From: Hysterangium stoloniferum
Taxonomy: Eukaryota > Basidiomycota > Agaricomycetes > Hysterangiales > Hysterangiaceae
Length of the DNA: 64,000 bases
Direction: 5' to 3'
Assembly (NCBI GenBank): GCA_015178975.1
Contig: WHVD01000156.1
Coordinates: 1 to 64,000, forward strand
How positions within the stretch are numbered: position 1 is the stretch's first letter; every line of letters starts with the position of its first letter. Of the stretch, positions 1 through 58,529 are shown in pieces. The notes beneath the pieces were generated by a model. That model saw only the letters and a program-made list of their open reading frames with translations, searched no databases and was not told where the DNA came from. The position numbers and the translations under genes were made by a program.

Positions 1-1449
1 TTGGATGAACATTGGCTATAGGTTTTATCCGACCCTCAAAGTCTCCCTATGGAGCCCCTGTCCTATTCGTTCGGAAAAAGACGGTTCCCTTCGACTTTGC
101 GTTGACTTTCGAGGACTAAACGCGATTACTCGAAAAGAACAAGTACCCCATTACCATAATCTCCGATTTACTCGACGCCCCTCGAAAGGCCCGAATTTAT
201 ACAAAGATAGATCTCAAACACGCCTATCATTTGGTTCGGATCGCCGAAGGTGACGAATGGAAAACAGCTTTTCGCACTCGCTATGGTTCCTTTGAATGGT
301 TAGTGATGCCTTTCGGCCTCACCAACGCTCCGTCGGTCTTTCAACGTTTTATCAACGACGTCTTTTCCGACCTACTTGACGTCTTTGTCATTGTGTACCT
401 AGACGACATCCTCATCTTCTCCGAAGACCCTACACTTCATGATGAACACGTCCGTGAAGTCCTCCGAAGACTCCGAAAACATGGTCTTTTTGCGAATGGT
501 AAAAAATGTTCTTTTGATGTCGACACGGTTGAATACTTAGGCTTCATGATGGAACCCGACGGTCTCCGCATGGACGACTCTAAAAATTCAAGTCATTCAA
601 GATTGGCCGGAACCCCGAAAGGTTAAAGATATTCAGTCCTTTTTAGGCTTCGCCAATTTTTATCGCGTTTCATTCAAAATTACTCAAAAATTACCGTTCC
701 GCTCACTCGTCTTACTCGCAAAGACACCCCGTGGAATTTCTCCGACGAATGCCGATCGGCATTCCAGGAATTGAAAAGTGCATTTACATCCGCCCCTATT
801 TTGTCGCACTGGAAACCCGACGTTCAACTCATCGTGGAAACTGATGCTTCGGACTATGCGCTTGCCGCGATATTGTCCATTCTGGACACCGATGGTGAAG
901 TACACCCAGTAGCTTTTCTGTCTCGCACATTTTCGGCGCCCGAACTCAACTACGACGTTCACGATAAGGAATTACTCGCATCTTTGAAGCTTTCAAGACA
1001 TGGCGACATTATTTGGAGGGCTCGGCCACCCGGTAGATGTTATTACAGACCACAAAAATTTAGTTTACTTTTCAACCACAAAACTTCTCACCCGTCGACA
1101 AGCTCGATGGTCCGAATACCTCTCCGCTTTCAACATGGTAATCCGCTTCCGTCCCGGCCGCCTTGGTGGAAAACCCGACGCTATGACTAGACGATGGGAC
1201 GTCTATCCTAAAGAGGGGAGTAGCGACTACGCCACAGTTAACCCGCATAATTTCAAACCTATGTTTTCATCGGAACAACTGTCCGCATCTATCCGAGCCA
1301 CTTACCTCATTCATCCAGTCTTGCGAAGTGTTATCCTTATGGATACCGAAAAGTTACATCAAGACATACTATCGGCAATTCCATTAGACCCAGTCACCAA
1401 AGCACACCTCGATAACCCGTCCGACCCGATCAACCCCGATGGTCATTAG
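1..1449 (+). pseudogene. Ty3/gypsy pol remnant 1: reverse transcriptase and RNase H
   Basis: This is the decayed 5' half of the pol of a Ty3/gypsy retrotransposon, whose reverse transcriptase and RNase H copy element RNA into DNA. The RT palm is seen in pieces: a [16 protein letters not shown] block near 75-120, [14 protein letters not shown] near 303-345, and the catalytic YLDD box at 396-407. The thumb/connection (EYLGF, then QDWPEP and [13 protein letters not shown]) and RNase H (ETDASDYALAAILS near 837-880, [13 protein letters not shown] near 1035-1075) follow in changing frames. At least three frame changes (near 150, 590 and 990) rule out a working product. The 5' end of the element (LTR, gag, protease) lies outside the window. 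The assignment to Ty3/gypsy follows from domain order (RT, RH, then IN) and is secure. Confidence 0.93.
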
Positions 1450-2822
1450 ACTCACAAGGTTTCATTCGACTTGACAATCGCATTTATGTACCGGATTCCG
1501 ACACCCTTCGGCCGCGAATCCTACAACATAAGCACGACCACCCAATCTCAGGACATTTCGGCCTCAATAAGACCCTCTCACTCATTAGAAGAGAATATAC
1601 ATGGCCCGGCATCCGAGATTTTGTTAAGCACTATTGTAAATCCTGTACTACATGTTTACGCTCTAAATCACAGCGACACAAACCATATGGCCTACTCAAA
1701 CAATTACCGATACCGGAAAAACCCTGGAACTCGATTTCTATGGATTTTATCGAGCACCTGCCAGCATCCGAAGGTCACACAGCAATCCTAGTTGTTGTGG
1801 ATCGGCTCTCAAAGCAAAGTATTTTCATTCCAACATATGACACGATAACATCTGTACAGTTAGCTGAATTATTCGTTACCCATGTATTTTCCAAGCATGG
1901 CGTTCCGTCGCATGTCACATCCGATCGCGGCTCCGAGTTTGTCTCTCACTTCTTTAGGTCACTGGGAAAAGCACTAGACATGAAGTTACACTTCACTTCG
2001 GGCTATCACCCGGAAGGCGATGGACAAACCGAACGCATGAATCAAACCTTGGAGCAATACATCCGTGTCTATTGCAACTATCAACAAGACAATTGGAAAT
2101 CACTACTACCGCTGGCCGAATTCGCATACAACAACGCACCAAATGCCACTACTGGCATTTCGCCTTTCTTCGCAAATAAAGGCTACAACCCCAACATCGC
2201 AATCCACCCGGAACGCGATCTCGCATCCGCCCGTGCTCAAGACTTTGTTACAAACCTTGACGAGCTACATCAAGAACTTCGTAAAACTATCGCAATGGCT
2301 CAAGAACGATACCAACAGTCTGCGGATAAAAACCGACTTCCACCTCCTGATTTCAAGATCGGAGACCGAGTATTCGTTAAAGCCGAGTTTTTCCGAACCA
2401 CTAGACCTTCTAAGAAGCTCTCTGAAAAATATTTAGGTCCTTTTGAAGTTATAGCACAAGCCGGCACGCTTTCATGGACGCTTCGGCTCCCCGACAACAT
2501 GCGTGCAGTACACCCGGTATTTCATGTATCCATGTTAGAACCTTGTGTTGCTAACAGTATACCCGATCGCATACAACCACCACCCCCACCCGTGATCATC
2601 GACGGGGAACCCGAATTTGAAATATCGGAAATCCTAGACTCCAAGATCGACAATCGCAGGCGATTGTGCAAGTTACTTTATTTGGTCAAATGGACTGGCT
2701 ATGAAGGTACAGATGAAGAAACTTCCTGGATTCTAGCCACCGAACTTGGCAATGCATCGGAAATTGTTTTAGCTTTCCATCAAACGTATCCGAATAAGCC
2801 CGGTCCTTTAGACTCTCTTTAG
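1450..2822 (+). pseudogene. Ty3/gypsy integrase with C-terminal chromodomain (element 1)
   Basis: This continues element 1 and encodes the integrase that inserts the cDNA. The HHCC zinc domain lies at about 1520-1680 in another frame (HDHP...GHFG, then CKSCTTC). From 1740 an uninterrupted 360-residue frame carries the core: MDFIEHL with the first Asp, TSDRGSEF with the second Asp, and PEGDGQTERMNQTLE with the Glu of the DDE triad. A GPFEVIAQ/LRLPDNM module and the typical HPVFHVSMLEP segment follow. The last 70 residues (EFEISEILDSK, YLVKWTGYEGTDEETSW) are a chromodomain, which in chromoviruses directs integration to heterochromatin. This part is intact, whereas the upstream pol is frameshifted. 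The stop is at 2820-2822. Confidence 0.93.
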
Positions 2823-2946
2823 TCCTCGCACGGTAACCGACGGCCTCCGGTTCTTCAAACATCAAGTCTCACTAGTCGATGCTTTCAATTTTCAATTTTC
2901 AATTCACGTTTCAAAAAAAAAGGGGATAAAATCAATTATTATTTTG

Positions 2947-3952
2947 CTAACTACCCAAAGTACCCTCCACTACTTCCCCTTCCTCCTCGGCCTCCGAAGC
3001 TCTTGCTTCACCGACGGCAACCGATATTCCCTTCCCTCCTGTTTCCTCCAAGGCCCTAACCGGCTCAACTTCGTCCGAACTAGGCAGCTCGAGATACTGC
3101 TCGAGCTGCCCCCCGACCCACTGTAACATGGCTGTCTGTTCTCCAATAGCCACTCCCAGCAGTCGCATTTGCTCTTGTAGGAGCCCCTGCTGTCGCAGAG
3201 ACTCGTTTCGCCACCGAGTGGTCTCCGAGAAGTACAACCGCATAAGGCGGTTCTGTTCCTCCATCGCGTCTGTCTGGCGCTCTCCGTAGATCACACCCAC
3301 GTCGGCCCCCGGGTAGGTACAACCAAGTTTTTGACTCGCACACTCTTGACATGTGCGGCCCCGACCGTTCGCCCGAGGATGGCAAGCCCGGTTCCGAGCA
3401 GTGCAGCGGTTACACCTAGGATCGTTTTCAGGCCCCGCCTTTGGGACTCCTTTTTGTCTCTATCACTAAAAGTCAGTAACAGCAAAAAAAATATATATAT
3501 GCATAAATACCTTCGGGCTCGAAGGCCCCGCAGCCTCATCCTCATCTTCCTCGTCCTCTTCATCGGAGACCGACGGTGATACTGCCTTTCGCTGAGAAGA
3601 AAACATTAGTAGAGATTCGCAGTGCGGTATTTCTCCTAACTTACCTTCCCTTCTCGTTTCTTTCTCGCCTCCTCCTCTCGGCCCGACCGGCCTCCTGCTG
3701 TTTTTTCCTCGCAAGATCAGCCTCCCGACGCTTGCGCGTAGCTTCCACCTCCGCCCGTCTCTTCTCCTCGGCCTCGGCCACCTCAATCGCTTTCAGCTCC
3801 TCCATCTCCTTTCGTTCCTCCTCCTCGCGTGCCTTTTTCCTTGCCTCGAGTTGGCGACGACGCTCTAGTGCATTCAGCGTCCCACTCGGACCCAACGCGG
3901 GAGTTACCGTCAGCCTCACAGGGATGGTCTTCGCCCCAGTGTTCATTGACAT
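2947..3952 (-). CDS. Convergent Zn2Cys6/coiled-coil gene of Ty3 element 1
   Basis: This is a multi-exon gene facing pol and lying between the pol stop and the 3' LTR. The proposed start is the ATG at 3952 (MSMNTGAKTIP). Exon 1 (to about 3648) encodes a short Pro/Gly-rich head and a roughly 80-residue Arg/Glu/Lys-rich coiled coil. A GTAAGT donor and a TTCTCAG acceptor near 3590 lead to an acidic exon (SDEEDEEDEDEAAGPSSPK). A second intron (about 3530-3475) precedes a cysteine cluster at about 3340-3420 with spacing CX2CX6CX10CX2CX6C, which is the fungal binuclear zinc (Gal4-type) spacing. The C-terminal exon is helical and acidic (MEEQNRLMRLYF...) and stops at 2947. Exon phases did not join cleanly between exons 1 and 2 by my reading, so this copy may carry an indel. 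The function is unknown. Three relatives occur in this window (8050-8887, 23994-25691, 54850-55815). Confidence 0.6.
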
Positions 3953-4111
3953 TGTGTTTTGGAGGAAAGATTGAAGAGTAAAGCGCCTTGTAACCTCCCA
4001 TTTCTTATATGCGAAAATTTTACCGGTCACATGACGTTCTGACACACAACCCGTAGCCGACGTTGTTTTACGTACACGATCTAGATTTTCGGCCTCCTTG
4101 GGATTTCGGCC

Positions 4112-4125
4112 AAATGAGGGGATAC
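4112..4125 (+). other. Polypurine tract of Ty3 element 1
   Basis: The purine-rich run AAATGAGGGGATAC abuts the 3' LTR and is the expected plus-strand primer site. Similar runs precede the LTRs of element 2 (8952-8965) and, on the minus strand, element 3 (54625-54640). Confidence 0.6.
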
Positions 4126-4847
4126 TGTTACGACTGTGTCGTAACCCTTCGCAAACCGACGGCCCCCGACGGAATACCCTCGTTATACGTCTCCGACAAT
4201 ACAACACCTCGGAAGCCGTCGGACCCCCGACGCTGACGTATGCTCTCCGGTCAATCAAACCCGACTACGCCTTTCTGTCTGGTTATGTTTGATATGTCCC
4301 TTTCATCATGTTGATCCGTCTCATCTTATGTTCCACATATGTCTAACTATATTTGTAGTCCTCGAACTATTTCCTTTTATCGTAATTTCCATTCTCGGTT
4401 ATCATCGGCCTCCGAACTAATCATAAACTTCCTGTTCCTAGTCAAGCTTATTGTTAATGCCGTTTTCCGCCCTCCTCCCCATTAGTACTTTCTAGACGCC
4501 TGTTACTTGTATATGAACTCGCTGTAATTGTAGTTACTAGGCAATCAGAATATCGACTCAGAATACCCTCATACGTCTGTAGCAGTCTCATACTAGGAGA
4601 ATCTCTCTTCCGCCTTCGCGTGCGCTCGCCCACTCTCGGCCCCGACCCCTTGGCCCGACACCTGACTTTTCCTTCGGTTCCGATCGGTGTCTTGCCGAAA
4701 AGTTCTTCTTAGGATTTAGTCTTCGCCTGTCCGAAATTTAAGGACAACCTACGGATATTTGCGAGGGCGCAGCATATAAGCTGAAGCCAAGTCCTTCCGA
4801 TCGGTCCCCGTCGGCCACCGACATTAGTCAGTTTCTAGTTCTTAACA
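4126..4847 (+). repeat. 3' LTR of Ty3 element 1
   Basis: The LTR starts TGTTACGACTG directly after the polypurine tract and ends TTCTTAACA, so the termini are the inverted TGTTA...TAACA. It is about 722 bp. The sequence immediately after it (from 4848) leads into the middle of a different Ty3 pol, so element 1 may have inserted into element 2. The 5' LTR and the other target-site copy are outside the window, so the 3' boundary rests only on the terminal motif. Confidence 0.65.
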
Positions 4848-7800
4848 CAATCCGAATATCAATATAGTCAATCAAAAGACTCTCAAACCTTTGTGGTCTT
4901 TATTCGCGATGAATCTTTCAAAACTTGTAAAGCCTCTGGTGCAAAAACTACGACTTCGACATCATTTGACATACCGAACGTTCCAACCGAATATTCTGAC
5001 TTCTCGGATGTTTTCAACAAAAAAGAAGCTGAAGCTTTACCTGAACATCAAAGTTATGATCACGCTATCCCATTAGAAGAAGGAACTATTCCACCTATGG
5101 GTCCAATCTATTCGTTATCCGGGACAGAACTTCAAGTGCTACGAGAATATCTTCAAGAGAACCTTTCAAAAAAGTTTATTCAATCGTCACAATCTCCCGC
5201 CAGCACACCGATTTTATTCGTTAAGAAGAAAGACGGAAGCCTACGACTTTGCGTCGACTATTGAGGACTTAATAAAATCACATGGAAAAGCTGATATCCG
5301 CTTCCTTTAATTCCTGATCTTTTGGATCGACTTCGAACGGCGAAATATTTTACAAAAATTGATCTCCGAGGCGCCTATAATTTAGTTAGGAGATGAATGG
5401 AAAACAGCCTTTTGGACTCGATATGGATCTTTCGAATATTTGGTTATGCCTTTTGGACTGTGCAATGCTCCAGCAACCTTTCAACAATTAATGAATGAAA
5501 TATTTTCAGATTTACTTGATATTTGGGTAATTATCTATCTCGACGACATACTAATATTTTCCGACAATCTCGAAGAACATTTACGACAAGTTTGAGAAGT
5601 TCTTCGACAGCTTCGACAAAATCGATTATTTGCAAAACCCGAAAAATGCGAATTTCACAAAACCAGTGTCGAATTTCTAGGATATGTTATTTCTCCTCAA
5701 GGCGTATATATGGATGAAGAAAAAATCAAAGTTATTCAAGACTGGCCCGAACCGCAAAAAGTCCACGACATTCAATCATTTTTAGGATTCGCAAATTTCT
5801 ACCGAAGATTTATTCCAAGTTATTCTGAAATCGTTTTACCGTTGACTCGACTTACTCGAAAAAAGGTTCAATGGCATTTCGACGAAAAATGTCGACATGC
5901 ATTTAACTATTTGAAAAAAGACTTTACTACAGCTCCGATTTTAATTCATTGGAATCCAGACTATAAACCCATACTCGAAACTGACGCTTCTGATCATGCC
6001 ATAGCTTCAATATTTTCTATGCAAACTCCCGATAACGAGATTCATCCAGTCACTTATCATTCAAGAACTCTTTCGACCTCTGAAATTAACTACGACACTT
6101 ACGATAAAGAATTATTAGCAATATTCGAATCTTTCAAAATTTGGCGACATTATTTCGAAGGAACAAAAGAACCAATTGAAGTTTTAACGGATCACAAGAA
6201 TCTCGAATATTTTGCGACAACTCGAATTTTGTCCTGACGACAAGCTTGATGGGCAGAATATTTATCGACCTTTAATTTGATTATTCGATTTTGACCGGAA
6301 AACTAAATTTGAAAACAGATATTCTTTCCAGAAGAAATGACGTTTATCCGAATGAATCCGACTACTCGAAAAAGAATCCGACTAATCTTCGACCGGTATT
6401 TACAAATGAGCAAATTCAAGCCTCCTTACGTGCAACATATTATCTTCCAATAGTGAGAAAAGCTACTCTCATTATAGATACAGATCAACTATTGCAAGAT
6501 ATATTCAAAGCTCAAAAAGAAGATCAATTTACTCTTGACAAGATTCGACAGATTTCCGACAGTACCGAAGAAGATTGGCAAAAGAACGAACAAGACTTTT
6601 TATGTTTCCGAAACAGAATTTACGTTCCCGATTATCAAACTCTCCGACTTCGAGTTCTTCAATCACGACATGATCACATTACTGCAGGCCATTTCGGTCA
6701 AACGAAAATGTATCGAACAATATATCGAGATTTCTTTTGGCCACGACTCCGACAAGATATTCAAAATTTTATTCGATCATGCGTAACGTGTACAAAATCG
6801 AAAACTCCACGACATCGACCTGTTGGATTACTTAAACAACTTCCGATTCCTCTTTGACCATGGCATTCGATCTCGATGGACTTTATCGAACAATTACCGA
6901 CCTCGAATGGTTATGACTCAATACTCGTAATTGTCGATCGACTTTCGAAACAAGCAATATTCATTCCAACTTATACTACGATCAACGCTCCCGAACTTGC
7001 TCGACTTTTCGTATTACATGTCTTTTCAAAACATGGAGTCCCCAGTCATGTAACTTCCGATCGAGGATCCGAATTCGTATCGCATTTCTTTCAATTTCTC
7101 GGAACAGCACTCGACATGAAATTACATTTCACTTCGGGATATCATCCTGAAGGCAATGGACAAACCGAACGAGTCAATCAAACCCTCGAACAATATTTAC
7201 GAATATATTCAAATTATCAACAAGACAATTGGGCCGAATTACTTCCTTTAGCCGAATTCGCTTACAACAATGCATCTTCCGAAACAACTGGTGAAACGCC
7301 ATTTTTTGCTAATAAAGGTTATCATCCATTGTTAGAAATTCACCCTGAAAAAGATCTAGCTTCCACTCTAGCTCGCGATTATACAACAGATCTCAAAGCT
7401 CTACATAAACATCTCAAATCAAATATCCAGAAAGCGCAAATATGTTATCAAAAATATTTCGACATACATCGAAAAGAGTCTTTCGACTTTCCGATCCATT
7501 CTCAAGTCTTTGTACGATCTGACTTCATTCGAACGACTTGACCATTGAAAAAATTTTCGGAAAAATTATTAGGCCTATTCGAAATCATTGCTCAACCAGG
7601 ATCTCATTCATATACATTAAAACTCCCCAATCATCTCAAAGGAATTCATCCCGTCTTTCGCGTCTCAATGTTAGAACCATTTTATCCCAATACTTTCCCA
7701 AATCGAAAACAACCTCCTCCTCCACCAATTTATGTTGAAGAAGAACCTGAATATGAAATTCGAGAAATTTTGGATTCAAAATTCGATAAAGATATAAAGA

Positions 7801-8049: not shown

Positions 8050-8887
8050 CTACAAATCTTCCATTTTTTCCTCTCTCACTTCTGCCATCTTATCAAACCA
8101 TTCCCCCCTAAATCTTCCACTATTAACACTAATGTCAGTCTCCTCACTAAAATCGCCACTTTCGACCAATTTCTTCAACAAAACCGAAAAATCTTCTCTG
8201 AACGCCTTAATCTCATCAATCAAATCTTCCATGGTATCTTCCAATTTCGACATTCTTTCACCGATCGATTTTATTTCTTTTTCCAAGTCCCTGTCCGACC
8301 GATGTTCCGACCTTCTCGACTGTCTAGAAAAATTCGACATTCTTGACATGACGTTGCGACGACTATTTTTCCTTTGCCTGAGCTTTCGAATCTCTGGACT
8401 ACCACCTTCACTTTCGTTTTCCGATTCTTCAATCACGTTTTGACTCTTTTTTTGGTTTCGACGTGGTTTTCCGGCTGGCCTATTTACAGTCCAGTAACAG
8501 GCCCAATGCAATTGATTGCACCGATCACAATTCGATGACGCGTTAGTTTTCTTGCACACAAAATTTGTGTTAAAACACATAGTGCAACTGGGAAAAAATA
8601 AATCAGTAAAAATTTGACCAAAATTCGACAAAACCGAAAAATTACAAATTTTCCGATTTTGCCTCAAATTCCCATTGCATTCCAATTCCCTTACAAGTCA
8701 CCTTATCGAATGGTTCTTCACAATCCACTATGCGCTTTTTGGGAATTTCTTCTAAAAAATAACTAATTAACTAATTTAGAGAAATCCCAGGAAACCACTT
8801 ACCAACCGCACCAGCACCTATCTCTTTATCCTCGAAACCCAAAAACTCAGATTCTGATTCGAATTGATCAACTTCTATGTCAGACAT
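8050..8887 (-). CDS. Convergent Zn2Cys6/coiled-coil gene of Ty3 element 2 (apparently intact)
   Basis: This gene faces pol 2 and lies between it and the 3' LTR. It has three exons in my reading: 8887-8803 (acidic start MSDIEVDQFESESEF), 8751-8646, and 8587-8050. The introns are 8802-8752 (GTAAGT...TTTTTAG) and 8645-8588 (GTAATT...TTCCCAG). The phases join exactly to give 242 residues without a stop. The exon 2/3 junction creates a cysteine cluster CX2CX6CX8CX2CX6C (CTMC...CKK...CDRC...C), which is the Zn2Cys6 spacing. A basic Arg/Lys-rich stretch, a coiled coil (LEKEIKSIGERMSKLEDTMEDL) and an acidic tail follow. By analogy with Zn2Cys6 proteins it could bind DNA in the nucleus, but that is inference. 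The neighbouring pol is heavily mutated, so the clean frame here is notable. Confidence 0.7.
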
Positions 8888-10211: not shown

Positions 10212-12042
10212 ATGAATTCTTACAACCCTGTACCGTTGACGCACGCCCAGGACAGCGAACAGCAAGGACAACGCAACGTAGGTTGAAATATGTTGACTTT
10301 GGAATTTTCTTTGACATATCTGCTGACATTGCATGCTGTAGCTTGGTGGTTTTCAGTCTAGCCAATCATCGAGAAACGAGGTGCTAGCCAGTCGGCGATT
10401 TCAGCAGAAAGAAAAACGGGATCTGCACCCCTTGAGTCTCATAGTTTTAGGCATATGGACCTCGTACATTGTAGCGACCATTTTTCTCCTCGAGCAGGCC
10501 GCCGCCGCCGCCCCACGCAGCGTTGATCAGCCTTGGATATTCAACGTTCTGCCAAGCCTAATGCTCACTTTCTTCGCTCAAGGTCACATATCTGTTACTA
10601 CCCTACATCTGTCTCGAGTCGCTGTTTCGGCGATTCAGCAGGAGAGCACAGCCCCGCACTCCTGGGCCGAGCTCTTCTGGCTGGCTGACCATGAGTGGTC
10701 TGGTCCCATCGGATTCGCAAGGGTTGTGATCACCATGATCAAACGGAGGATCCGTGCATCTTTAACATTTTTCATCTTTGCATTCACGTGTATGGTAGCC
10801 CTTGCCACGCCCGTGATACTTTCCCATGCTTATGGTGTCGGCCCCGTCGATGTAACGATTAACACCACAATCACCCCAAATACATTCTCTCTAAATGGGC
10901 TGACGAATATAGACAGTGAGATACAAATGGGGACAGGCATTGGCTCATGGACCACTGGTCTATCCGTGTTTGACATTTACAACACTAGTATATTCACTCC
11001 AGAAGGATCGTCACGAGAGGTTCCCAATGACTTCTTTTTTGCCGGGAATATCCTAGATTCGAATGCCACGCTGCCAGGGTTACGACTTCAAGGGAGCTGC
11101 GAACCATTTTCCAATGAGTCTTCAATAGGTGTTGGGCAAAATATGACCCTCTTTCCCTATGAATCCTGTATTAATTATTTCTCCACGTTCTCGAACATCA
11201 ATGCTAAAAACGTCAGCATCCAACCAGATAATGTAACCATCACGTTCGGCTATTGTACAGACGCAGTTGACGCCGTACACTCCATCGGTGACATCGACTC
11301 CATAGCTTATATCTTCCTTCAGACCAACAATGGAACTGTATCTACTAGTGGTGTCATAAAGTGTCAAGCATTGTTATCGTTCGGTAGTGCATCATTGTGG
11401 GGAACTCAGGGGATCTATAATTCATTTCAGGACCTTGCTTACAACGACAGTCAAGCACAGACAAAAGCAATTATTATAAACCCTCTGGGAAGTACGCTAA
11501 AAGGCCTCGCTGTTGAAATGGCTCCTATCACCCCTTCGGATTGCACCGAATCCTCCTCCAATTGTAGCACAGATGAGAAGCAATCAATGCTGTTAAAACA
11601 GCTAGGGTATAATAGCACTGGCATTGCAGGAGATCTTCACTACGTTCAGCCGGGTCTTGACATCTTCGCAAGCCGAATATGGCTCGGTGTTACTCATATG
11701 ACGGCTGGACTTGGTTTACTATCTCGTTCATCAGACACAGCTTACCCCGCAGTAGTTCGGCACGCCACACCGGGACGAACGCGCTCAAGTCAATTCGTCG
11801 TTGGGTCGTGTGCATTGCTAGCCTTGTGGATGTCTGGGTTGATATATGTTTCCATTGAGAGTTACCGTTTGTCTATCGACTCTAGCCTAGGAAGTTATGT
11901 TGCCGCTCGTTTACACGCGGAGGATACTCGTTTATATCCAGGAGATGAGCCATTGTGGGATAGCCGATCTCACTCTGGTGAATTATCCGGCGATGAACGA
12001 CTTAATAGCCCGTTCGTATCTGAAAGCCGGATCGGGAGATGA
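10212..12042 (+). CDS. Tandem membrane glycoprotein-like gene, copy 1
   Basis: I do not recognise this family. Two exons are supported: 10212-10277 (MNSYNPVPLTHAQD..., 22 codons) and 10357-12042. They are separated by a 79-nt intron (donor GTAGGT, acceptor TTTTCAG) that joins in phase 0 and gives 583 residues. A cytosolic head precedes a hydrophobic segment at about residues 45-67 (SLIVLGIWTSYIVATIFLL), a weaker one near 82-102, and a strong one near 159-185 (TFFIFAFTCMVALATPVIL). A roughly 310-residue region rich in N-X-S/T sequons and cysteines follows, probably extracytosolic. A last transmembrane segment lies near 502-522, followed by a tail of about 60 residues. The same layout recurs twice downstream. 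A surface or endomembrane protein is likely, but its function is unknown. Confidence 0.8.
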
Positions 12043-13446
12043 CTCGGACGAGATGTAGCTAAAGACCGGCCTTGCCAATGGACTTTTTTAATTTGGACAA
12101 TTGTAACCTCTACTTAGTTTACCAGCAGATATCTGTGGATGGCGGAGAATTTTTAAAAGCATTGTGCCAAACTTGAGTACGGACGCCAGGTCTAGTTGAA
12201 ATTGGAAAAACCATGCCCGAAACTGGGAACTGTGTCATAACAGACAGATACCTGATCCATGTTGGGTGTGAAATATTCAGACGGTACTAGTACTTATTAT
12301 GGATTGCCGATGACAAACGATCTTTGAACAAAAGAGGCACTTTTAAATTATACTACAATTAGTAAACAATAGTCAACGAAACAGACTTCCTGTGTGGACA
12401 ACATCGGGCCGGTGTAGTAGCTGGTCAGGTTAAAAAGCCCTTGTCAACTTTGAAGTTTGAAGTCGGAAGGGACATCCGACCCATCACCTGGCGTTGTAAT
12501 GGTTTGGTGATGATTTGACCGCCGGTTGGGACATTCTCCATCCACTGCAGAGATAATCCCGGTCGTGGTGCACCATTGTTATTTGAAGGATGTATGTTGG
12601 GAATCTCTCCAACCCTTTCCACTGGATTTATCATCATGGGTGAATCTTGTATAACCCTCCTTGCATTCTCATTGTCACACTACACCCAGTTCACTCCGGG
12701 ACAAACCAAAAGAATGCAAGTAACAATAAACTGAGTATCCTGCGACGATAGTGGAACAGTGTCGCGAACTGAAGACAGCCCATCATACCTTAAACTGGGA
12801 AAGTTAAAATGCTATGCTATGCTATGCTATTAACACATAATAGTACCACCGGTGTGCTAATCGGTGAACTTGTCCCGTCTCCATGATCACGGTGGCCTTT
12901 TTACCGCTGAAACCTTTGGACGAGTGATTGTAGAGCTTCATCTAGAGTTCGTGATCTCATTCGCGTGTTACAAAGTTAGAACTTTCAGGATCTGTCATAT
13001 CGAGTACCGCCTGGAGTCATTCGCCAATGTCATCCTGTTTGTCGTCGCGGAGGAGCCTATACTCAACATATATTCCCAGTCTGGAACGTTCTCAGTACTT
13101 CAGAATACATGGTAGCATTGCCTCTTCGACGACAAATGAAAGGGGCTCAGAGTTACCGACTGAATTTCTTTTTGATCATTACTATCTTGTCACCTGTCAA
13201 AACACAAGTTTAGTGCCTACAGTTATATATCATCAGAACATGTAGAATTCCAACAACATAAGCGCGCGGGAATAAAGTTCGTAACGCCTTCCGATTATTC
13301 CAACGCTTTCAACTGAGATTATTTGGCTACTAAAGAACTCGATGGGCATAGCATCTGTGATTGATGATCATACGTTCAAGTGGATAGCCCTGTAAAGAGA
13401 ATAAGCTAATAAGGCAAGGCTCTTTGGTAGTTCTCTTATCGATGCC
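12043..13446. other. Spacer between membrane-protein copies 1 and 2
   Basis: The first 600 bases match the 3' flank of copy 3 (17076-17646). A short ATGCT/TGCTA microsatellite lies at about 12811-12830. From about 13137 the sequence repeats the upstream flank of copy 1 (offset 3235 bp), including GAAAGGGGCT...GAGTTACCGA. No separate gene is supported. A minus-strand frame at 12425-12637 is conserved at 17437-17646 but changes almost only at amino-acid-altering positions. Confidence 0.5.
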
Positions 13447-15406
13447 ATGAATTCTTACAACCCTGTACCGTTGACGCACGCCCAGGACAGCGAACAGCAA
13501 GGACAACGCAACGTAGGTTGAAATATGTTGACTTTGGAATTTTCTTTGACATATCTGCTGACATTGCATGCTGTAGCTTGGTGGTTTTCAGTCTAGCCAA
13601 TCATCGAGAAACGAGGTGCTAGCCAGTCGGCGATTTCAGCAGAAAGAAAAACGGGATCTGCACCCCTTGAGTCTCATAGTTTTAGGCATATGGACCTCGT
13701 ACATTGTAGCGACCATTTTTCTCCTCGAGCAGGCCGCCGCCGCCGCCCCACGCAGCGTTGATCAGCCTTGGATATTCAACGTTCTGCCAAGCCTAATGCT
13801 CACTTTCTTCACCCAAGGTCACATATCTGTTACTGCCCTACACCTGTCTCGAGTCGCTGTTTCGGCGATTCAGCAGGAGAGCACAGCCCCGCACTCCTGG
13901 GCCGAGCTCTTCTGGCTGGCTGACCATGAGTGGTCTGGTCCCATTGGATTAGCAAGTGCTGTGATCACCATGATCAAATGGAGGATCCGTGCATCTTTAA
14001 CATTTTTCATCTTTGCATTCACATGTATGGTAGCCCTTGCCACGCCCGTGATACTTTCCCATGCTTATGGTGTCGGCCCCGTCGATGTAACGGTTAACAC
14101 CACAATCACCCCAAATACATTCTCTTTAAATGAGACGACGAATATAGACAGAATTATGCAAATGGGGATAGGCATTAGCTCATGGACCACCGGTCTATCC
14201 GTCCTTGACATTTACGACGCTAGTATATTCACTCCAGAAGGATCGTCACGAGAGGTTCCCAATGACTTGTTTTTTGCCGGGAATATCCTAGATTCGAATG
14301 CCACGCTGCCAGGATTACGACTTCAAGGGAGCTGCGAACCACTCTCCGATGAGGCTTCAATAGCTGTTGTGCAAAATACCACCCTCTTTTTCTCAGAATT
14401 TTGTGACAATTCTTTCTCCACGATCTCGTACTCAAATCATGGAAACGTCAGCGTCCAACCAGATAATGTAACCATCACCGTCAACTATTGTTCAGACGCA
14501 GCTGACGTCATAAACTACATCGGTGACAGGGACTCCACCGCTTATATCTTCCTTCAGACCAACAATGGAACTGTATCTACTAGTGGTGTGATAAAGTGTC
14601 AATCATTCTTATCGTTCGGTAGTGCATCATTATGGGGAACTCAGGGGACCTATAACTCATTTCGGGACTTTCCTTACAACAACAGTCAAGCACAGACAGA
14701 AGCAATTAACCCTCTTGGAAGTACGCTTGTAGGCCTCATTGATGCCATGGATCCTTCGCTTTGCTCCCCATTCTCCCCCAATTGTAGCAAAGATGAGAAG
14801 CAATCAATGCTGTTAAAACAGCTAGGATATCATAGCACTGGCATTGCAGGAGATCTTCACTACGTTCAGCCGGGTCTTGACATCTTCGCAAGCCGAATAT
14901 GGCTCGGTGTTACTCATATGACGGCTGGACTTGGTTTACTATTTCGTTCATCAGACACAGCTTACCCTGCAGTAGTTCGGCACGCCACATCGGGACGAAC
15001 GCGCTCAAGTCAATTCGTCGTTGGGTCGTGTGTATTACTAGCCTTGTGGATGTATGGGTTGATATATGTTTCCATTAGGAGTTACCGTTTGTCTATCGAC
15101 TCTAGCCTAGGGAGTTATGTTGCCGCTCGTTTACATGCGGAAGATACTCGTTTATATCCAGGAGATGAGCCATTGTGGGATGGCCGTGCTCACTCTGATG
15201 AATTATCCGGAGATGAACGACTTAATGGGCCGTTCCTATCTGAAAGCTGGATCGCCGTGAATTCCTACAACGCTGTACCGTTAACTCACACCCTGGACAG
15301 CAGACAGCAAGGACAACGCAACGTAGGTTCAAATACATTGACTTCGGAATTTTCTTTGACATATCTGCTGACATTGCATGCTGTAGCTTGGTGGTTTTCA
15401 GTCTAG
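13447..15406 (+). CDS. Tandem membrane glycoprotein-like gene, copy 2 (reads into copy 3)
   Basis: Exon 1 is 13447-13512 and exon 2 starts at 13592 after a 79-nt intron identical in position to that of copy 1. The N-terminal 170 and C-terminal 120 residues are nearly identical to copy 1, while the sequon-rich ectodomain differs by many substitutions and small indels. Where copy 1 ends with SESRIGR and a stop, this copy has SESWIA and continues straight into the first exon of copy 3 (15257-15322), whose ATG is GTG here. If the 15323-15401 intron is retained, the frame stops at 15404-15406. If it is spliced at the same donor and acceptor as in the paralogs, the frame runs on in phase 0 through copy 3 to 17075, giving a predicted 1156-residue double protein. 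Confidence 0.75.
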
Positions 15407-23993: not shown

Positions 23994-25691
23994 CACCTTT
24001 TGCAGGCTGTTCTGTTCCTCCAGAGCCTTGATAAACCACTCAATGAGAGTGTTGGTGACTCCATCAGACCCCAGCCAGTGACACACCAATTTGGAAGAAG
24101 CACACTCATAACAAGTATGCCCCCACCCCGTTTGTTTGTGGCATAGTTGCTTGCATGTGGTACACCAATTGTACTTGGGAACATTCTTGGAGCCCATTTC
24201 AAGTGTCTGCTTGGACTTCTGTCAAAATGTTAGTCACCGGCAAACCAACCAACTCCATATATGTTAAGGGAGAGGCAAGCTCATGGAGGGTTTCTGGAGA
24301 AACCCACAGATATGTTAAATTTGATGATGAAACACACCTTTTTATAGGGGGAGTCCACCAATTATTGCAACTTTTCATATGAAGATGCTAATTGTGGACC
24401 ATGCATTTGGAGGTTAATGTGTGTCAGAACCACTATACACCTCCCAGAGCATCCAACCTATATTGTCAGGAGGTGCTACACTAACTGACACAAGATATTG
24501 AGACACAAGTACTTTTATTACAAGCTTATTAAACCCTTGTATATTGTGTATTGCAATAGAGTCAACTCATACTATTTTTAATAAGATACTCCAGTAGGAC
24601 TTGGCTTCAGCTTATAGGCTGCACCCTTGTGAGATCATGGTGTCCAATTTCAAACAGGTGGATGGGAAACTTGGGGAGTCTGGGAGTAGTTGATAGGTTG
24701 AGAGGTCAAACAGTCAATAAGTTGGAAGGCCAGTTGGAAGGCCCATGGACTCCGATGAGTCGATAGCATTGTTTTTCAAAGATGAGAGATAGTAATTGTA
24801 CAGGGTATGTATATGCTAAGTTACTGGGGGAGAACTAAGTCAATTTTATGACCAGATTGTATGTAAAAACATTAGCTAGACTATATAGATTGTGGAATGT
24901 ATGCAATACCAAATCCAGTAATAATAAAGATCAAAACAAGTAATAATGAAATGAGACAAGTAATCATAAAATGAGATGAGCAAACACCAAACTAGGTGTT
25001 AGGGATGGAACAGAACAGAGGCAGGGCATGAAAAATGACAGGTCATTTGACCATAACAGGAATGGGGCTCAGTTAGAGAGCTGATGGGTTATGCGGGTAG
25101 AGTCCAGTGACTGGTGCATGAGATAGAGTCAGATATAGACAGGTTTGACATGCACAGGTCCTGGCAGGCACTCTGGTTGTGACTGTACTTTGGGTACCAT
25201 ATAGAGGGTCAGGTGCATATAAGGTGGGGTCCAGATGCTGGCAGGGTTTCTGGTTAACTATAACCTGGTGGGTATAGAGAGTCAGGTGCATGTAGGATGG
25301 GGTCCAGAGCCCAGCAGGTTTTCTGGTCCTAACAATATGCACCTTTGGGCTAGGAGATCCTGCCTCATCCTCCTCCTTGGAGTCCAAAGGACTCTTTGCC
25401 TTAGGCTGGTAGCTGTTAGAAGCTTTGGAAACCCGAGTTGAATGAATCACTCACCTTCCATCCTTCATTCTCTTTCCTCAACTTCTCAACTTCTACCACT
25501 GCCTCCCTCACTTTCCGCTCAGCCTCCTTGACCTCAGCAACCCTCAGTACCTCTGCCTCCTTCTGTCCCTCCTTCTCATGCAGCAACTGGTGTTGCTCCA
25601 TCCATTGCCCCATTTCCTCAAATCCCAGAATTCCACTGGAACCCACATCAGTTTTCTTCTGGAATGTAGGCATGGGTTCAGGAGCCATTGA
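23994..25691 (-). pseudogene. Third Zn-cluster/coiled-coil gene, split by a solo LTR and 3'-truncated
   Basis: The 5' exon reads from 25691 (MAPEPMPTFQKKTDVGSSG) into a Glu/Lys/Val coiled coil and ends with a GTGAGT donor near 25455. An acidic exon (SKEEDEAGSPSPKV) follows at about 25390-25335. It is then interrupted by the LTR at 24262-25334. The cysteine cluster exon (24200-23994) reads VPKYNWCTTC, CHKQ, CYEC, C with spacing CX2CX3CX9CX2CX6C, so one gap is shorter than in its relatives. The frame ends at the CACCT site of the copia insertion. Removing that insertion joins it in frame to the Tao3-like fragment (QKV-FTLVQDG). No Ty3 pol is next to this copy. A remnant of the Ty3 3' region is seen at about 25826-25855. 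Confidence 0.65.
24262..25334. repeat. Solo LTR inside the third Zn-cluster gene
   Basis: The repeat starts TGTTAAGGGAG and ends TGGTCCTAACA, with flanks ATATA and ATATG (an imperfect 5-bp duplication). Its body matches the LTRs at 37635-38452 and 53571-54624 (shared CCAGTAGGACTTGGCTTCAG and TATAGGCTGCACCCT). It carries an extra stretch of about 290 bp (24310-24590) absent from those copies. No internal element sequence accompanies it. Confidence 0.75.
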
Positions 25692-54624: not shown

Positions 54625-54849
54625 GTACCCTCCCTTTATGCCGAAGTCCCAAAGAGGCTCTAGACCTCAATAAGGTTCTTGTTGGCTACACGCATGTGTC
54701 AAAAGACATGTCGGTTACACGTATGTCGGTTACACGTATGTGTCAAAGAGTCAGGTGATCTGGAAGGTAAGGTTCAGACGCGACGAGCCTATATATAAAT
54801 TTGAAAAAAATGAAATTTCTTCTTCTTTATTATCCCCATCTTCACCATA

Positions 54850-55815
54850 ATGGGACCAAAACCAACGCCAAGATGTCCTATGCTGACCACTGGGCCCTCC
54901 ACAGGCACTCCATATCGGGCACCTCTCAGCACGGCCCAAAGTTTGGTGCGATGAGAGGAGCAGCACCGACAGCGTGAAGAAGCAGAGAAGGAGGCCAGGG
55001 AGGCGAAAGAGGCCCTGGACAGGGAGTACCAGGCGGCATTGGCCGCAGAGGAAGAGGCTGTGAGGCAGAAGAAAAGAGAAGAGGAGGAGGCTGCATGGGT
55101 GGCCATGGAGAAAGTGCGGGTGGCTGCAGACAGGGCCGCGGTTGTTGTGGGAAAAGTAAGTCCCAAATTTCAACTTGTCGAATTTTACTGACTTGTGTCT
55201 TTCAGTGCAAAGTGACAGAGGTGGAGTCGGAGTCCAAGGGGGAGCTGGAGAGCCCCCAGAAAGTAAGTCTCGGGTCCGTGGGATATCCGTGGAAACTAAC
55301 CATATCAACAGAAGGCAAGGAAGGCGGCACCAGTCCACCTACCCACACAGAATGACCCGCAGTGTTCCAGTTGTAATGACCAGAACACTGAATGCAACCG
55401 AAAGTCTGGCCAGGGTCTGAGCTGCTACCAATGTGCGCACCTCAAAGTGAGGTGCTCACTTGTTCACGAGCAGGCCACGGGGTCCAGGGTGCGAGACATT
55501 AGTGGGTTGGACGGGTTTTCTGGATTGGACAAAGTCCTGGGATGGACCACCAAGGGCATCGAGGCCCAAAATGAGTTGCTCCGGAAGAGCAACAAGGTCC
55601 AGATTGTGGTGGCAAAGGAGCTGTGTGGACTCCATGAGGAGTTTTGGAAATTCCTGGCGGAGTATGGCAGCTATATATATGCAGAGCTGCAAGTCGGGAG
55701 TTCTGAGGATGCCAGGTTGGATGAGGACGGGGTTGCCATGGAGGTCACGGAGCTCCCTGAGAAGATGGCTGAGGAGGCGTGGAAAAAGCACAGTCCCATA
55801 AATGTAGATGAATAG
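54850..55815 (+). CDS. Convergent Zn2Cys6/coiled-coil gene of Ty3 element 3
   Basis: Three exons join in phase 0: 54850-55155 (MGPKPTPRCPMLTTGPSTGTP, then a Glu/Arg/Ala coiled coil), 55206-55262 (acidic, EVESESKGELESPQK) and 55312-55815. The introns begin GTAAGT and end TTTCAG or CAACAG. The total is 288 residues. Exon 3 holds the cysteine cluster CSSC...C...CYQC...C with spacing CX2CX6CX9CX2CX6C, followed by a helical tail (GIEAQNELLRKSNK...HEEFWKFLAEYG) and an acidic end. One TGA at 54952-54954 (GTG CGA TGA GAG) breaks exon 1 where an arginine would suit the coiled coil; CGA to TGA would explain it. The head-coil-acid-cysteine order is identical to the genes beside Ty3 elements 1 and 2. Its function is unknown; DNA binding is inference. 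Confidence 0.7.
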
Positions 55816-56003: not shown

Positions 56004-57830
56004 TCAGAGAGACGATAGTGGTCCAGGTTTGAGTGGGTAAGCTGTATGAAAGTCAGTAACAATTTCTGTGGCATTACCGAGTTCTGTGGCCAAAATCCAT
56101 GAGGTTTCTTCATCGGTGCCCTCGTAACCCACCCACTTGACCAAGTAAAGCACTTTACAAGTGCGTCGACACTTGTCAATTTTTGAATCTAAAATTTGTG
56201 AGATTTCAAACTCGGGTTCTCCGTCAATAATGACCGGAGGAGGCGGGGATTGCATGCGATCTGGGATAGTGTTAGCAGTACAAGGTTCTAGCATAGAAAG
56301 GAGGATAGTCACAATTCATTGAATACACAAAATTTTATGAAAAGCTCCTCATATTTTTAAGTGAGACTATTTCTCCTGGCTATGACTACATGTTTTAGGG
56401 ATTTATATTTCATTAACCCAAAATTTCATCTTTAAGACTTGTACACTCCCTTAAAAATTTGCACAAATGTCATGGTTATACAAGATTATCTGGGTTGTTA
56501 CCTAATCTTTGGGATAAAATACATTCTCTAGTATCTCCATGACTTTTAAAATGTCCACAAACATTATAGTTAACCAAAATTACTTGGGTTATGACTTAAT
56601 CTTTGGGATAAGATGGGTTCTCTTGTATATTATGCAAACTTTCAAATATAGTTCATATAATTTAAATTTATTTGGTTTAGAAAGTTAACCAGAACTATCT
56701 GGCCAACCAATCCATGTTGTGGAATTTATCCCCAAAAGGATAATCTATATATGTTTGTTTGACTAACTTTTGTCAGATACAAGATAAATATAAATATTTT
56801 CTTATTCTCCAGAATATTATCTGATAGGCTGAATTTGATTAAATATTAATTTTACAACAAACAATATAAATATATATACTTTAGTGGATAAATAACTTTT
56901 AAAGTTTGCGGTTATCCTCCAAACATGAAATACTGGGTGTACTGCATGCATGCTATCTGGAAGCTGTAGGGTCCAAGAGACTGAACCTACTTGTGTGATA
57001 ATTTCAAAAGGACCTAAATACTTTTCAGCAAGCTTTTTTGATGGACGGGTAGTCCGGAAGAATTGAGCTTTGACAAAAACATGATAGCCAATCTTGAAGT
57101 TGGGTGGCGGAATCTGGTGTTTGTCCACTGAATGTTGATATTGCTCTTGGGTGGACTTTATTGCAGTCTGGAGTTCCTCGTGGAGCTCGTGGAGGTCCGC
57201 AGTGAACTCTTGAGTGTGAGCAGAGGCGAGATTTCGTTCTGGATGTACTGTAATATTTGGATTATATCCTTTATTTGCAAAGAACAGGGAAACGCCAGTA
57301 GTGGGTGAAGGTGCATTGTTGTAAGCAAATTCTGCAAGTGGTAACAAGGATTTCCAATTGTCCTGTTGGTAATTGCAATATACATGGAGATATTGTTCCA
57401 ATGTCTGGTTGACACGTTTGGTTTGTCCGTTGCCTTCTGGGTGATGTCCAGACATGATATGTAATCTCATGTCCAAGGATTTTCTAAGGGATCTAAAGAA
57501 GTGAGATACATATGAACTCTGATCCTCAGTCGGATGTTACATGGGATGGAACTCCATGCTTGGAAAATATGTGGATAATAAAAAGTTTCACTAACTGCAC
57601 AGACATAATTGTGTCATAAGTAGGGATGAATATACCTTGTTTTGAGAATCTGTCAACAACGACTAGAATGGTGGAAAAGCCTTCGGAATATGGTAGGTGT
57701 TCAATGAAATCCATAGAGATAGAATTCCACAGGTGTTCCAGTACCAGGAGTTGTTTCAAAAGGCCGTATGGCTTGTGTCGCTGAGATTTTGAGTGGGGAC
57801 AAGTAGTGCAAGATTTACAATAGTGCTTAA
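56004..57830 (-). pseudogene. Ty3 element 3 integrase and chromodomain (interrupted)
   Basis: Minus strand: KSCTTCPHSKSQRHKPYGLLKQL (zinc domain end), then SISMDFIEHLPYSEGFSTILVVVDRFSKQG, and SKHGVPSHVTSD followed by TGA where the family has Arg (DRGSEF). After a small indel near 57480, HPEGNGQTKRVNQTLEQYLHVYCNYQQDNW, a GPFEIITQ module and HAVHPVFHV follow. There the MITE (56300-56920) splits the HPVFHV/SMLEP motif. The remaining frame, SMLEPCTANTIPDRMQ, leads to the chromodomain EFEISQILDSK...YLVKWVGYEGTDEETSW, with stop at 56004. Confidence 0.9.
56300..56920. mobile_element. MITE-like DNA element, copy 2 (621 bp)
   Basis: Same family as 51856-52474, with ends GGAGGATAGTCAC and GCGGTTATCCTCC. 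The TSD is AAA at 56297-56299 and 56921-56923. Removing it with one AAA restores the integrase motif HPVFHVSMLEP on the minus strand, which proves the borders. It is AT-rich with no coding frame. Confidence 0.9.
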
Positions 57831-58529
57831 CACTGGAGGCACCCCAAGATTTTTGGAGTTGCAAAACCTTCAGAAAATCTTGCTATTTGGCCAAATTTGC
57901 TAAGCATTCTTTGAACTGGAAAAACTGTTCAAAAATCTTGGGTTTTAGTAGGTTTTTCTGAGGACAAAAATTGTATCTGAAAACCCTAAAAATGTTGATC
58001 AGGACATTCTAGGGAAACATTGTTGGAAATAGCCTATTTTCTGTGGATTTTCTAAATAGGAAAATTCTTAAAAAACCCTGGGTTTTGTTAGGGTTTTTCC
58101 ACCCAACATAATTCTATCAAAACTGTAATAATTTGCCTAGAGAAATCAATTGAAAACCACATATTTCTACTCAATTTTTCTGCTCAGGGAATTGGGTGAA
58201 AACTGTAGTTTTTTGCGAGGAAAATCTTGTGCCAAGACAAAGTTTTGTTAATGTTTTGTCAAGGGGAAAACCATAATGAAATTGACAATTTAATTATATG
58301 GGAAATCATTGAATAATTATAGATTTCAATAAGATTTTCCTTGGCCATAAACACTATGGAAATTCAAAAAATGTGTTGGTGAAATCTTGAAGAAATTAAC
58401 AATTTCACATGAGTTTCTTAAAGGTTTTTCAAGATGAGAAACCTTGAACTGATTTTTCCTGATTGAGCATGATTCACAATTGTTTGGAATGGTACAGTGG
58501 GATTCACAAATATTTAAGAGGATTGTTTT

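Follow-up and report, generated by a model that had tools for sequence, protein, structure and literature searches.

An antisense gene with a zinc-cluster-like product in Ty3 retrotransposons of Hysterangium stoloniferum, and its possible recognition of CGG dyads in the element that carries it

Background

Antisense genes are known additions to long terminal repeat (LTR) retrotransposons. In plants they have been described as aORF-3R, additional antisense open reading frames (ORFs) such as Grande gene23, RIRE2, Retand TRP28 and PvRetro13; in the portions of two accounts available to us (PMC7264820, PMC11963269), a nuclear protein and an own promoter are reported for Grande and DNA binding is predicted for Retand TRP28. 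Excerpts of further papers cite (PMC7264820, PMC8365987, PMC4227169) or name (PMC5987419) the brtn gene of the Boty-like (BcGypsy1) retrotransposons of Botrytis. The function of such accessory genes in plants and Botrytis is not known according to the review excerpt at hand (PMC7264820). Here we describe an antisense gene in Ty3 elements of the fungus Hysterangium stoloniferum, starting from a stretch of 64,000 nucleotides (assembly GCA_015178975.1, contig WHVD01000156.1, positions 1 to 64,000 of the forward strand), referred to as the window. The window is the start of one contig, and all genome searches were run on the source genome (111 Mb, 554 contigs).

A second system that bears on this gene is VANC of the Arabidopsis VANDAL elements. 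According to the parts of two papers at our disposal, VANC is encoded by a transposable element (TE), binds a short motif that has built up within that same TE and brings about a loss of methylation (PMC5735166), and the specificities diverge between related families (PMC5735166, PMC10398659). We propose, with our confidence evenly divided, that the Hysterangium gene likewise encodes a self-recognising DNA-binding regulator, here in antisense, which acts like the VANC anti-silencers.

Antisense genes in three families of Ty3 elements

A first-pass annotation of the window had placed a spliced gene on the opposite strand in three Ty3 elements. Such genes are present at or close to where it had put them, and all run against pol. 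From six-frame reading and splice inspection, genes A, B and C each consist of three exons, converge with pol and lie between pol and the 3' LTR (Table 1); the predicted introns in the window are GT..AG in six of six cases and measure about 50 nt. An intact family-A copy encodes 300 residues (exons of 309, 81 and 513 nt, introns of 53 and 52 nt), one family-C copy has exons of 327, 57 and 501 nt with introns of 49 and 49 nt, and the exons of gene B measure 85, 106 and 538 nt. All introns of A and C are in phase 0 and occupy corresponding positions (after ..GK and after ..P(x)K), those of B in phases 1 and 2; the earlier statement that architecture and intron positions are kept is therefore borne out for A and C, not for B.

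Across the genome, GT..AG is kept at both introns in 32/38 A loci, 6/6 C loci and 18/30 B rows. CTNAY branch sites can be made out in the introns of A and C. Intron length varies between copies (47-57 nt in most A copies), while most exon lengths preserve the frame. The introns would have survived retrotransposition because the gene is antisense and they are thus not removed from the genomic RNA, which is how we explain their persistence. Judging from sequence, the gene appears to have a promoter of its own (for TATA-like sequences see Table 1).

Copies differ in their integrity. In the window, exon 1 of the A copy has 308 nt against 309 nt in intact copies, so that the frame to exon 2 is lost, and the B copy is the only one of the three that reads through (242 residues). 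Elsewhere, 15 of the 38 A and 6 C loci are intact through all exons; a first filter had passed 18 copies, from which L029, L031 and L032 were dropped for exon-3 frameshifts (fetched loci carry L numbers, contigs C numbers). For B the six cysteines are in register in 24/30 rows, 9 of which have a stop inside the cluster; B stop counts from the genome query are unreliable, as the query frame runs into intron 2. The fourth, orphan copy claimed earlier is indeed a relative of the A/C genes, though interrupted and with its first cysteine lost.

Exon-3 queries match the genome at least 151 (A), 154 (B) and 150 (C) times. These are lower bounds, 150 candidates having been scored per query out of 648 (A), 237 (B) and 1,466 (C), and the B query was a 215-residue frame of which the first 36 residues lie outside exon 3. 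The loci, two of which (L009 and L039) belong to the window itself, were fetched with flanks of 1.5 kb or as far as the contig reached. An integrase/chromodomain match adjoins the gene on the opposite strand at 30/30 A and 28/30 B loci, the exceptions being L051 and L059; at L040 the gene is accompanied by a chromodomain tail only. Pol matches lie on the other strand at six of the six C loci L077-L082. All loci were found through the gene, so these counts cover gene-bearing elements only.

A complete family-A element is present in L083, a stretch of 8.4 kb, with LTRs, gag-like and pol ORFs, the antisense gene and the 3' LTR in that order; its LTR pair is 99.3% identical over 738 aligned positions. 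The pol of family A contains H2C2, rve, SH3_Tf2-1 and Chromo above the Pfam cut-offs and is hence Ty3-type with integrase and chromodomain, which makes family A a Ty3/gypsy chromovirus. Among the pol pieces scanned for the other families, B passes for rve only and C for SH3_Tf2-1 only; the reverse transcriptase part of pol was recognised by eye.

Two further observations concern the elements themselves. Element B seems to lack its 5' part and to lie immediately next to the 3' LTR of element A (window 4848-4990). Many C copies are found no more than a few kb from the end of a contig (C1, C16, C25, C102, C103 and others), which suggests either subtelomeric positions or assembly breaks at young repeats.

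Exchange of the gene together with the distal U3

Family A comprises subtypes that share most of pol and the proximal LTR, and sequence comparison indicates that the gene and the distal unique 3' region (U3) form a swapped cassette. In the A2 copies L069, L070, L073, L075 and L076, exon 3 is only 57-65% identical to A1 and pol is nearly A1-like. Compared with L010, the synonymous divergence (dS) of L075, L073 and L069 is 0.27, 0.31 and 0.37 in the integrase against 1.52, 1.72 and 2.12 in the gene. For L070 the values are 0.78 in pol and 1.62 in the gene (on 84 synonymous sites only), and L076 has a pol dS of 0.27 (its gene is not intact and stands outside the gene comparison). Within subtypes the gene dS exceeds the pol dS too, but less so (about 1.3- to 3-fold for the pairs listed).

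The borders of the exchanged part can be seen in L073, L075 and L076. Here the identity drops sharply where pol ends, from about 95% to 46-76%, does not recover across the gene and returns to 83-84% at the polypurine tract (PPT); over the aligned part of L024, L028 and L029 there is no such step. Two A2 LTRs are 86-87% identical to A1 from position ~151 onward, and positions ~24-150 align poorly. The type of U3 follows the type of gene: 11 A1-type U3 regions stand with A1 genes, 8 A2-type regions with A2 genes and none is crossed (19/19, in 18 elements). This pairing was taken among 40 + 41 listed U3 matches and 150 of the 151 gene rows, with 29 + 33 U3 matches having no listed gene nearby.

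Gene and distal U3 may travel together merely by adjacency, and we take their linkage as a lead for joint function, not as proof. The ratio of N2 to N3 CGG dyads (see below) is 7:4 in the A2 cassette and 9:23 in A1, which is suggestive only (Fisher p 0.07, and 0.22 against the A1 module alone). As a separate observation, the distal U3 of the C-type LTR contains an array of a ~18-nt unit (..GGGTGTGGGTGCATATA..; window 54328-54580), absent from the C copy L086.

A zinc-cluster-like product

The proteins of A and C have the same order of parts: an N-terminal head, a charged coiled-coil-like exon, an acidic exon flanked by basic residues, six cysteines, a long helix (in A, by AlphaFold2) and an acidic tail. 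The order in B is an acidic head, PKKR, six cysteines, a basic stretch and a coiled coil. A head with coiled coil or acidic stretch, as claimed for all three, is thus found in A and C, and B lacks an N-terminal coiled-coil head. The cysteine spacing described earlier was recovered, as CX2CX6CX10CX2CX6C in A with a middle loop of X8 in B and X9 in C. Gal4-type (Zn_clus) clusters have the spacing CX2CX6CX5-12CX2CX6-8C, and all three families fall within this range.

Beyond the cysteines the likeness to Zn_clus is weak. The full-length C proteins score 8.0 and 7.4 bits, below the Pfam cut-off, and a Pfam scan gave no Zn_clus match for full-length A or B; hhalign of A against eight known clusters gave a P of 4.5e-5. 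AlphaFold2 models (built with two sequences for A and one for B) place a long helix after the cluster, at residues 60-123 in A and 101-179 in the B frame of 215 residues (the first 36 being outside exon 3). Homology between A and C extends beyond the cysteines (blastp E 7e-8 over 47 residues; 0/100 cysteine-preserving permutations reach the profile score), and the B cysteine region cannot be joined to them beyond the cysteines, 58/100 permutations reaching the score. A search of solved structures with A exon 3 returned four matches, none of them relevant. Plausibly, judging from these features, the protein works like a zinc-cluster dimer, with membership of Zn_clus unproven.

ORFs above the Zn_clus cut-off also occur in this genome. 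A guess that they represent the antisense gene in further Ty3 families was dropped, as the two that were fetched are tandem zinc-cluster arrays with no pol in the 1.5 kb read. They belong to a separate repeated ORF family of tandem Zn2Cys6 arrays above the Pfam cut-off, seen at L087 (C85:75400-76900), L088 (C37:185400-186900) and L002 (C115), with no Ty3 pol in the 1.5 kb read at L087 and at L088.

Spaced CGG dyads throughout the elements

We scanned the elements for pairs of all 64 trinucleotides, inverted or direct, at spacings of 0-15 (2,048 pairs), with the rate at spacings of 16-75 as background. In family A (7,045 bp, one LTR) CGG-N3-CCG ranks first of the 2,048 pairs, with 23 occurrences against 2.78 expected (p 4.5e-14). 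In family C (3,801 bp) the top two are CGG-N5-CCG (13 against 2.28) and CGG-N3-CCG (12 against 2.28). The same two come out on top in a fresh 4.3 kb of C that was fetched after the idea had formed (some 0.5 kb upstream of gag; LTR sequence previously seen), with 15 against 1.67 for N5 (p 3.4e-10) and 10 against 1.67 for N3 (p 1e-5). CGG-N3-CCG is also first in a 5-kb A2 stretch (11 against 1.62), which shares its pol with A1 and so is not independent.

The excess in A pol and in C gag and pol also stands against codon shuffles. When the codons of A pol were shuffled with protein and codon usage kept, 0/2000 shuffles reached the 12 N3 dyads observed (1.57 expected); these dyads fall in each of the three codon phases, and other spacings are not raised to a comparable degree. 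In C the N5 dyads exceed the shuffles in gag (5 against 0.81) and in the pol part (7 against 1.22), both with 0/1000 reaching, and the N3 dyads number 2 against 0.34 in gag and 6 against 1.28 in the pol part. The excess lies in the spacing: plain counts of CGG/CCG in the first 170 nt of the LTR are not raised in A1 (13 against 11.2, p 0.28) and barely so in C (15 against 11.0, p 0.046). In three other stretches of the window the CGG pair is not among the top 12 rows of the scan.

Two other candidate signals were set aside. CGA/TCG is in excess in the first 170 nt of the B LTR (12 against 6.9, 0/500 shuffles), and TCGA, CGAA and TTCG are no lower along the body of the element. A genome count of GTCGGNNNCCGAC (825 against 86 for the reversed pattern) was not used, as the listed places all carry the A-LTR form. 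Neither the spaced pairs nor the k-mers of family B yielded an enriched candidate.

Interpretation of the dyads

The typical zinc-cluster dimer binds two CGG triplets and is joined by a coiled coil downstream of the cluster (PMC5559640, in the available excerpt). A product that resembles a zinc cluster with a coiled coil, together with CGG pairs whose spacing changes from family to family along with the protein, is best read as self-recognition. We propose that an accessory gene, antisense between pol and the 3' LTR and apparently with its own promoter, would encode in A and C a nuclear, dimerising zinc-cluster protein. The dimer would bind CGG dyads throughout its own element at the spacing proper to the family, which is N3 in A and both N5 and N3 in C. 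In the manner of the VANC anti-silencing proteins, this binding would mark the DNA of the family and either counter silencing or drive the LTR. The sequence data show the gene with its predicted introns, the selection on it, the exchange of the cassette and the excess of dyads; splicing, nuclear location, the binding of zinc and DNA and any anti-silencing or activating effect are inferred from them. Sites across pol and gag would fit an effect on the whole element (anti-silencing or DNA coating) better than activation of a promoter. The first-pass annotation had suggested action on the element or on host chromatin; for the element this gains indirect backing from the A/C dyads and the U3-linked cassette. 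Methylation may enter here as well: in seven A copies CpG sites change at 2.4 times the rate of other C/G sites, as expected from cytosine methylation. The CGG half-site itself includes a CpG, which would allow methylation and binding to compete.

A number of observations weigh against this proposal. As to the protein, the best score for Pfam PF00172 (Zn_clus) is 13.9 bits, for C exon 3 plus four intron-derived residues, against a cut-off of 21. Permutations with the cysteines fixed match or beat the profile score in 3/100 (A), 10/100 (C), 19/100 (B) and 12/100 (A+C) cases, and the AlphaFold2 confidence (predicted local distance difference test, pLDDT) is mostly below 50 over the cluster in the models of A and B. 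The Gal4-type label given earlier is thus weakly supported: the cysteine spacing fits, the Pfam score stays below the cut-off, the profile match exceeds permuted columns only modestly and the models have low confidence over the cluster. No homologue of A or C outside the own genome was found in protein searches and, for C, a scan of viral contigs, in collections poor in fungi and with B not searched. As to the dyads, the excess is limited to the two related families A and C; family B shows none, the pair being outside its top 12 rows. In A as a whole CGG-N2-CCG and CGG-N4-CCG are raised too (9 each against 2.78), and in shuffles of A gag N3 reaches only 2 against 0.61, with N4 higher (4 against 0.81). 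The decayed C copy of the window has only two N3 and two N5 dyads in 4.3 kb. In eight older A copies, triplets within dyads are no better kept than single ones (125/209 against 480/804, odds ratio 1.00); dead copies may not show retention of dyads. As to the cassette, L026 (contig C40), which is outside the pairing lists, joins an A1-like gene to an A2-type PPT and U3 and represents a second kind of recombinant.

Some of these points would also suit a protein that is real and selected but acts elsewhere, for instance as a nucleic-acid chaperone or nuclear-import factor for the complementary DNA or on a host target. In that case the dyads may be read by a zinc-cluster factor of the host, a possibility that likewise counts against self-recognition. 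Clusters resembling nuclear localisation signals (NLS) flank the acidic exon, dyads are not confined to the LTR but occur also in pol and at the 3' end, Zn_clus membership is unproven and family B has the gene without the dyads. Against a host reader stands that the spacing, N3 in A and both N5 and N3 in C, varies between families just as the proteins do. Moreover, control stretches of the genome show no comparable peak: host zinc-cluster loci (25 kb) have 6 N3 and 3 N5 dyads against 3.5, and the window controls 2 and 4 against 1.6 (12.7 kb) and 0 and 3 against 3.0 (26 kb). A host factor would therefore need to drive family-specific spacings. We consider this alternative unlikely, yet a serious one.

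It seems improbable that the dyads are small RNA hairpins (a 3-bp stem with a loop of 3 or 5) for the packaging of genomic RNA, unrelated to the protein. CGG-N3-CCG can indeed form a short hairpin, but strong enrichment is confined to CGG/CCG: the six other GC-only trinucleotides (GCC, GGC, GCG, CGC, CCC and GGG) give no peak of that size. In addition, everted pairs, which form no hairpin, are in excess as well (CCG-N1-CGG 11 against 2.85 in A, CCG-N0-CGG 16 against 4.18 in C). In A both the everted pair and the direct CGG-N7-CGG are raised partly via the composite CGG-N3-CCG-N1-CGG.

Selection on the gene

The gene is under purifying selection in all three families, with a whole-gene ratio of nonsynonymous to synonymous divergence (dN/dS) of 0.09-0.30. 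By the method of Nei and Gojobori (NG86), the ratio is 0.10-0.29 among A pairs (dS 0.13-2.12), 0.16-0.27 among C pairs and 0.30 for one A2-C pair (dS 2.44); B pairs give 0.09-0.23, and dS is saturated in the A1-C pair. The range omits two near-identical pairs (dS 0.01 and 0.02), and L083 was omitted from the gene alignment. Exon-wise values are noisier, worst in exon 2, which is short (among the pairs listed, one C pair reaches 1.11 and one A pair 0.61), and comparisons of pol yield 0.06-0.22. An overlapping sense ORF is not the source of this signal, since no open sense frame crosses the gene in 12/12 copies examined of the 15 intact A and C copies (1-11 stops per frame). In the long term the protein evolves fast, with a dN between A and C of 0.72 in the gene against 0.10 in the integrase region. 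The argument from conservation to function, made before on great sequence difference with kept architecture, is strengthened by these ratios, which support a retroelement-borne antisense gene under selection.

The same data bear on two further alternatives. In the first, the gene would act mainly via its antisense transcript, which forms double-stranded RNA with the sense RNA for self-limitation or as a source of host small RNAs, the protein being secondary. Transcription is convergent and the idea has been raised for plant elements (PMC7264820, in the available part of the review), but the dN/dS of 0.09-0.30, the intact frames and the mostly kept splice sites in three families would then be unexpected, and we regard it as quite improbable. 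Neutral hitch-hiking, whether of a host gene once captured or of an ORF that arose by chance, with no role in the element, is very improbable: many old copies have decayed, mostly by TGA stops (among the A and C matches listed), yet purifying selection is seen in three families, the introns are kept in register and eight copies are identical in exon 3.

Features of the window

Table 1. Position of the antisense genes, the pol parts facing them and related features in the window
Feature	Position	Strand	Remarks
Element A stretch	1..4847	.	16 CGG-N3-CCG dyads against 1.65 expected, spread over the stretch
Family A pol, C-terminal part	1416..2822	+	H2C2, rve, SH3, chromodomain; convergent with gene A
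Gene A	3952-2947	-	Whole span
Gene A exon 3	2947..3459	-	Six-cysteine cluster, predicted long helix (exon-product residues 60-123), acidic tail
Gene A intron 2	3460..3510	-	51 nt, GT..AG
Gene A exon 2	3511..3591	-	Acidic stretch flanked by two basic NLS-like clusters
Gene A intron 1	3592..3644	-	53 nt, GT..AG, CTAAT-type branch site
Gene A exon 1	3645..3952	-	N-terminal head, charged coiled-coil-like stretch; out of frame with exon 2 here
TATA-like sequence, gene A	4001..4012	-	About 55 nt upstream of the ATG; by eye, no chance control
Element A 3' LTR	4126..4847	+	TG...CA; LTR pair visible in L083
Distal U3 of element A	4149..4275	+	Changes with gene type (A1 against A2)
Family B integrase core	6858..7541	+	rve; convergent with gene B
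Gene B	8887-8050	-	Whole span
Gene B exon 3	8050..8587	-	Six-cysteine cluster, basic stretch, coiled coil (helix pLDDT up to 95)
Gene B exon 2	8646..8751	-	PKKR basic cluster
Gene B exon 1	8803..8887	-	Short acidic head
Decayed A/C-gene relative	23994..25691	-	Exon-1- and exon-2-like parts, interrupted zinc-cluster exon
TATA-like sequence, gene C	54791..54799	+	50-60 nt upstream of the ATG, same place in an intact C copy; by eye, no chance control
Gene C	54850-55815	+	Whole span
Gene C exon 1	54850..55155	+	One in-frame TGA in the window copy
Gene C exon 2	55206..55262	+	Acidic stretch
Gene C exon 3	55312..55815	+	Six-cysteine cluster, further stretch, acidic tail
Family C pol fragment	56817..57536	-	SH3_Tf2-1 above cut-off; convergent with gene C

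Apart from these elements the window holds several other repeated features. Three very similar ORFs of 562-609 residues lie in a row at 10342-17075, with hydrophobic stretches and many N-glycosylation-like sites (by eye); the first of them has no Pfam match at E up to 1. Two similar ORFs on the same strand (41548-42141 and 48523-49440), which we take to be cytochrome P450-like, are probably a partial duplication. A long minisatellite with a 10-bp period extends from 59176 to ~61700 in a region with pol-like sequence, and has inverted arms at 57830-59025 and 61088-62283 that are 91% complementary.

Comparison with known systems

In its position the gene is of a known kind. What looks new is the product resembling a zinc cluster, the conservation of the introns, the exchange of the cassette and the spread of dyads over the whole element. 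The plant aORF-3R differ in being plant proteins with other domains, and Pfam scans of the A, B and C proteins found no TRP28. In the accessible text of PMC11963269 the term 'intron' is absent, and neither this account nor PMC7264820, as far as available, contains an element-wide target motif. The word 'antisense' is likewise absent from 'LTR Retrotransposons in Fungi' and from a survey of Tcn1-like chromoviruses. Among the open-licence papers listed on zinc clusters in antisense retrotransposon genes and on anti-silencing in fungi, none describes such a gene, judged by titles and the starts of abstracts. The nearest of those listed on anti-silencing concerns fungal DNA transposons that encode a TET/JBP dioxygenase, a different route by which a fungal TE may act on methylation (PMC12730594, in excerpt).

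Two further antisense genes can be likened to the present one by description only. The first is brtn, which reportedly goes back to a study by Zhao et al. (2011, Virology). It likewise belongs to a fungal LTR element with gag-pol, a chromodomain and an additional antisense gene, as the available text of the citing papers has it, and differs in coming from Botrytis. The second is HBZ of human T-cell leukaemia virus type 1 (HTLV-1), which is spliced and has a coiled coil. HBZ is likewise an antisense-encoded nuclear regulator of a retro-element (it is named in the available part of PMC11963269), but it is a basic leucine zipper (bZIP) protein and not a zinc cluster.

With the Gal4-type Zn2Cys6 factors (PF00172) the proteins have in common the six-cysteine spacing, a likely coiled-coil helix downstream, acidic stretches and CGG dyads in the presumed target. 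They differ in lying below the Pfam cut-off and in being borne by a retroelement. Basic residues are typical between cysteines 2 and 3 of Gal4-type clusters, unlike in the A, B and C proteins, which have few there.

The comparison with VANC goes furthest. VANDALs are DNA transposons. Their motifs lie mainly in non-coding tandem repeats, and binding and demethylation have been shown (in the portions of the VANC papers at hand), whereas the dyads described here are known from sequence and are dispersed, including in the coding parts gag and pol. A motif excess that differs between families, as in VANC, is found in A (CGG-N3-CCG) and C (N5 and N3), not in B.

Sequence alone points here both to a function and to its target, through a predicted DNA-binding protein and an excess of spaced motifs in the element that carries it. 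The predicted spacing (N3 for A, N5 and N3 for C) is directly testable with purified protein. If true, a retrotransposon would mark its own DNA by a sequence-specific protein and escape silencing with host genes undisturbed, which would also explain why the introns are retained in a gene that is antisense to the copied RNA. Tentatively, and with somewhat more doubt than belief, we see in this system an independently evolved retroelement counterpart of VANC, in which a gene for a zinc-cluster dimer, element-wide dyads of family-specific spacing and an exchangeable cassette of gene and U3 would come together.

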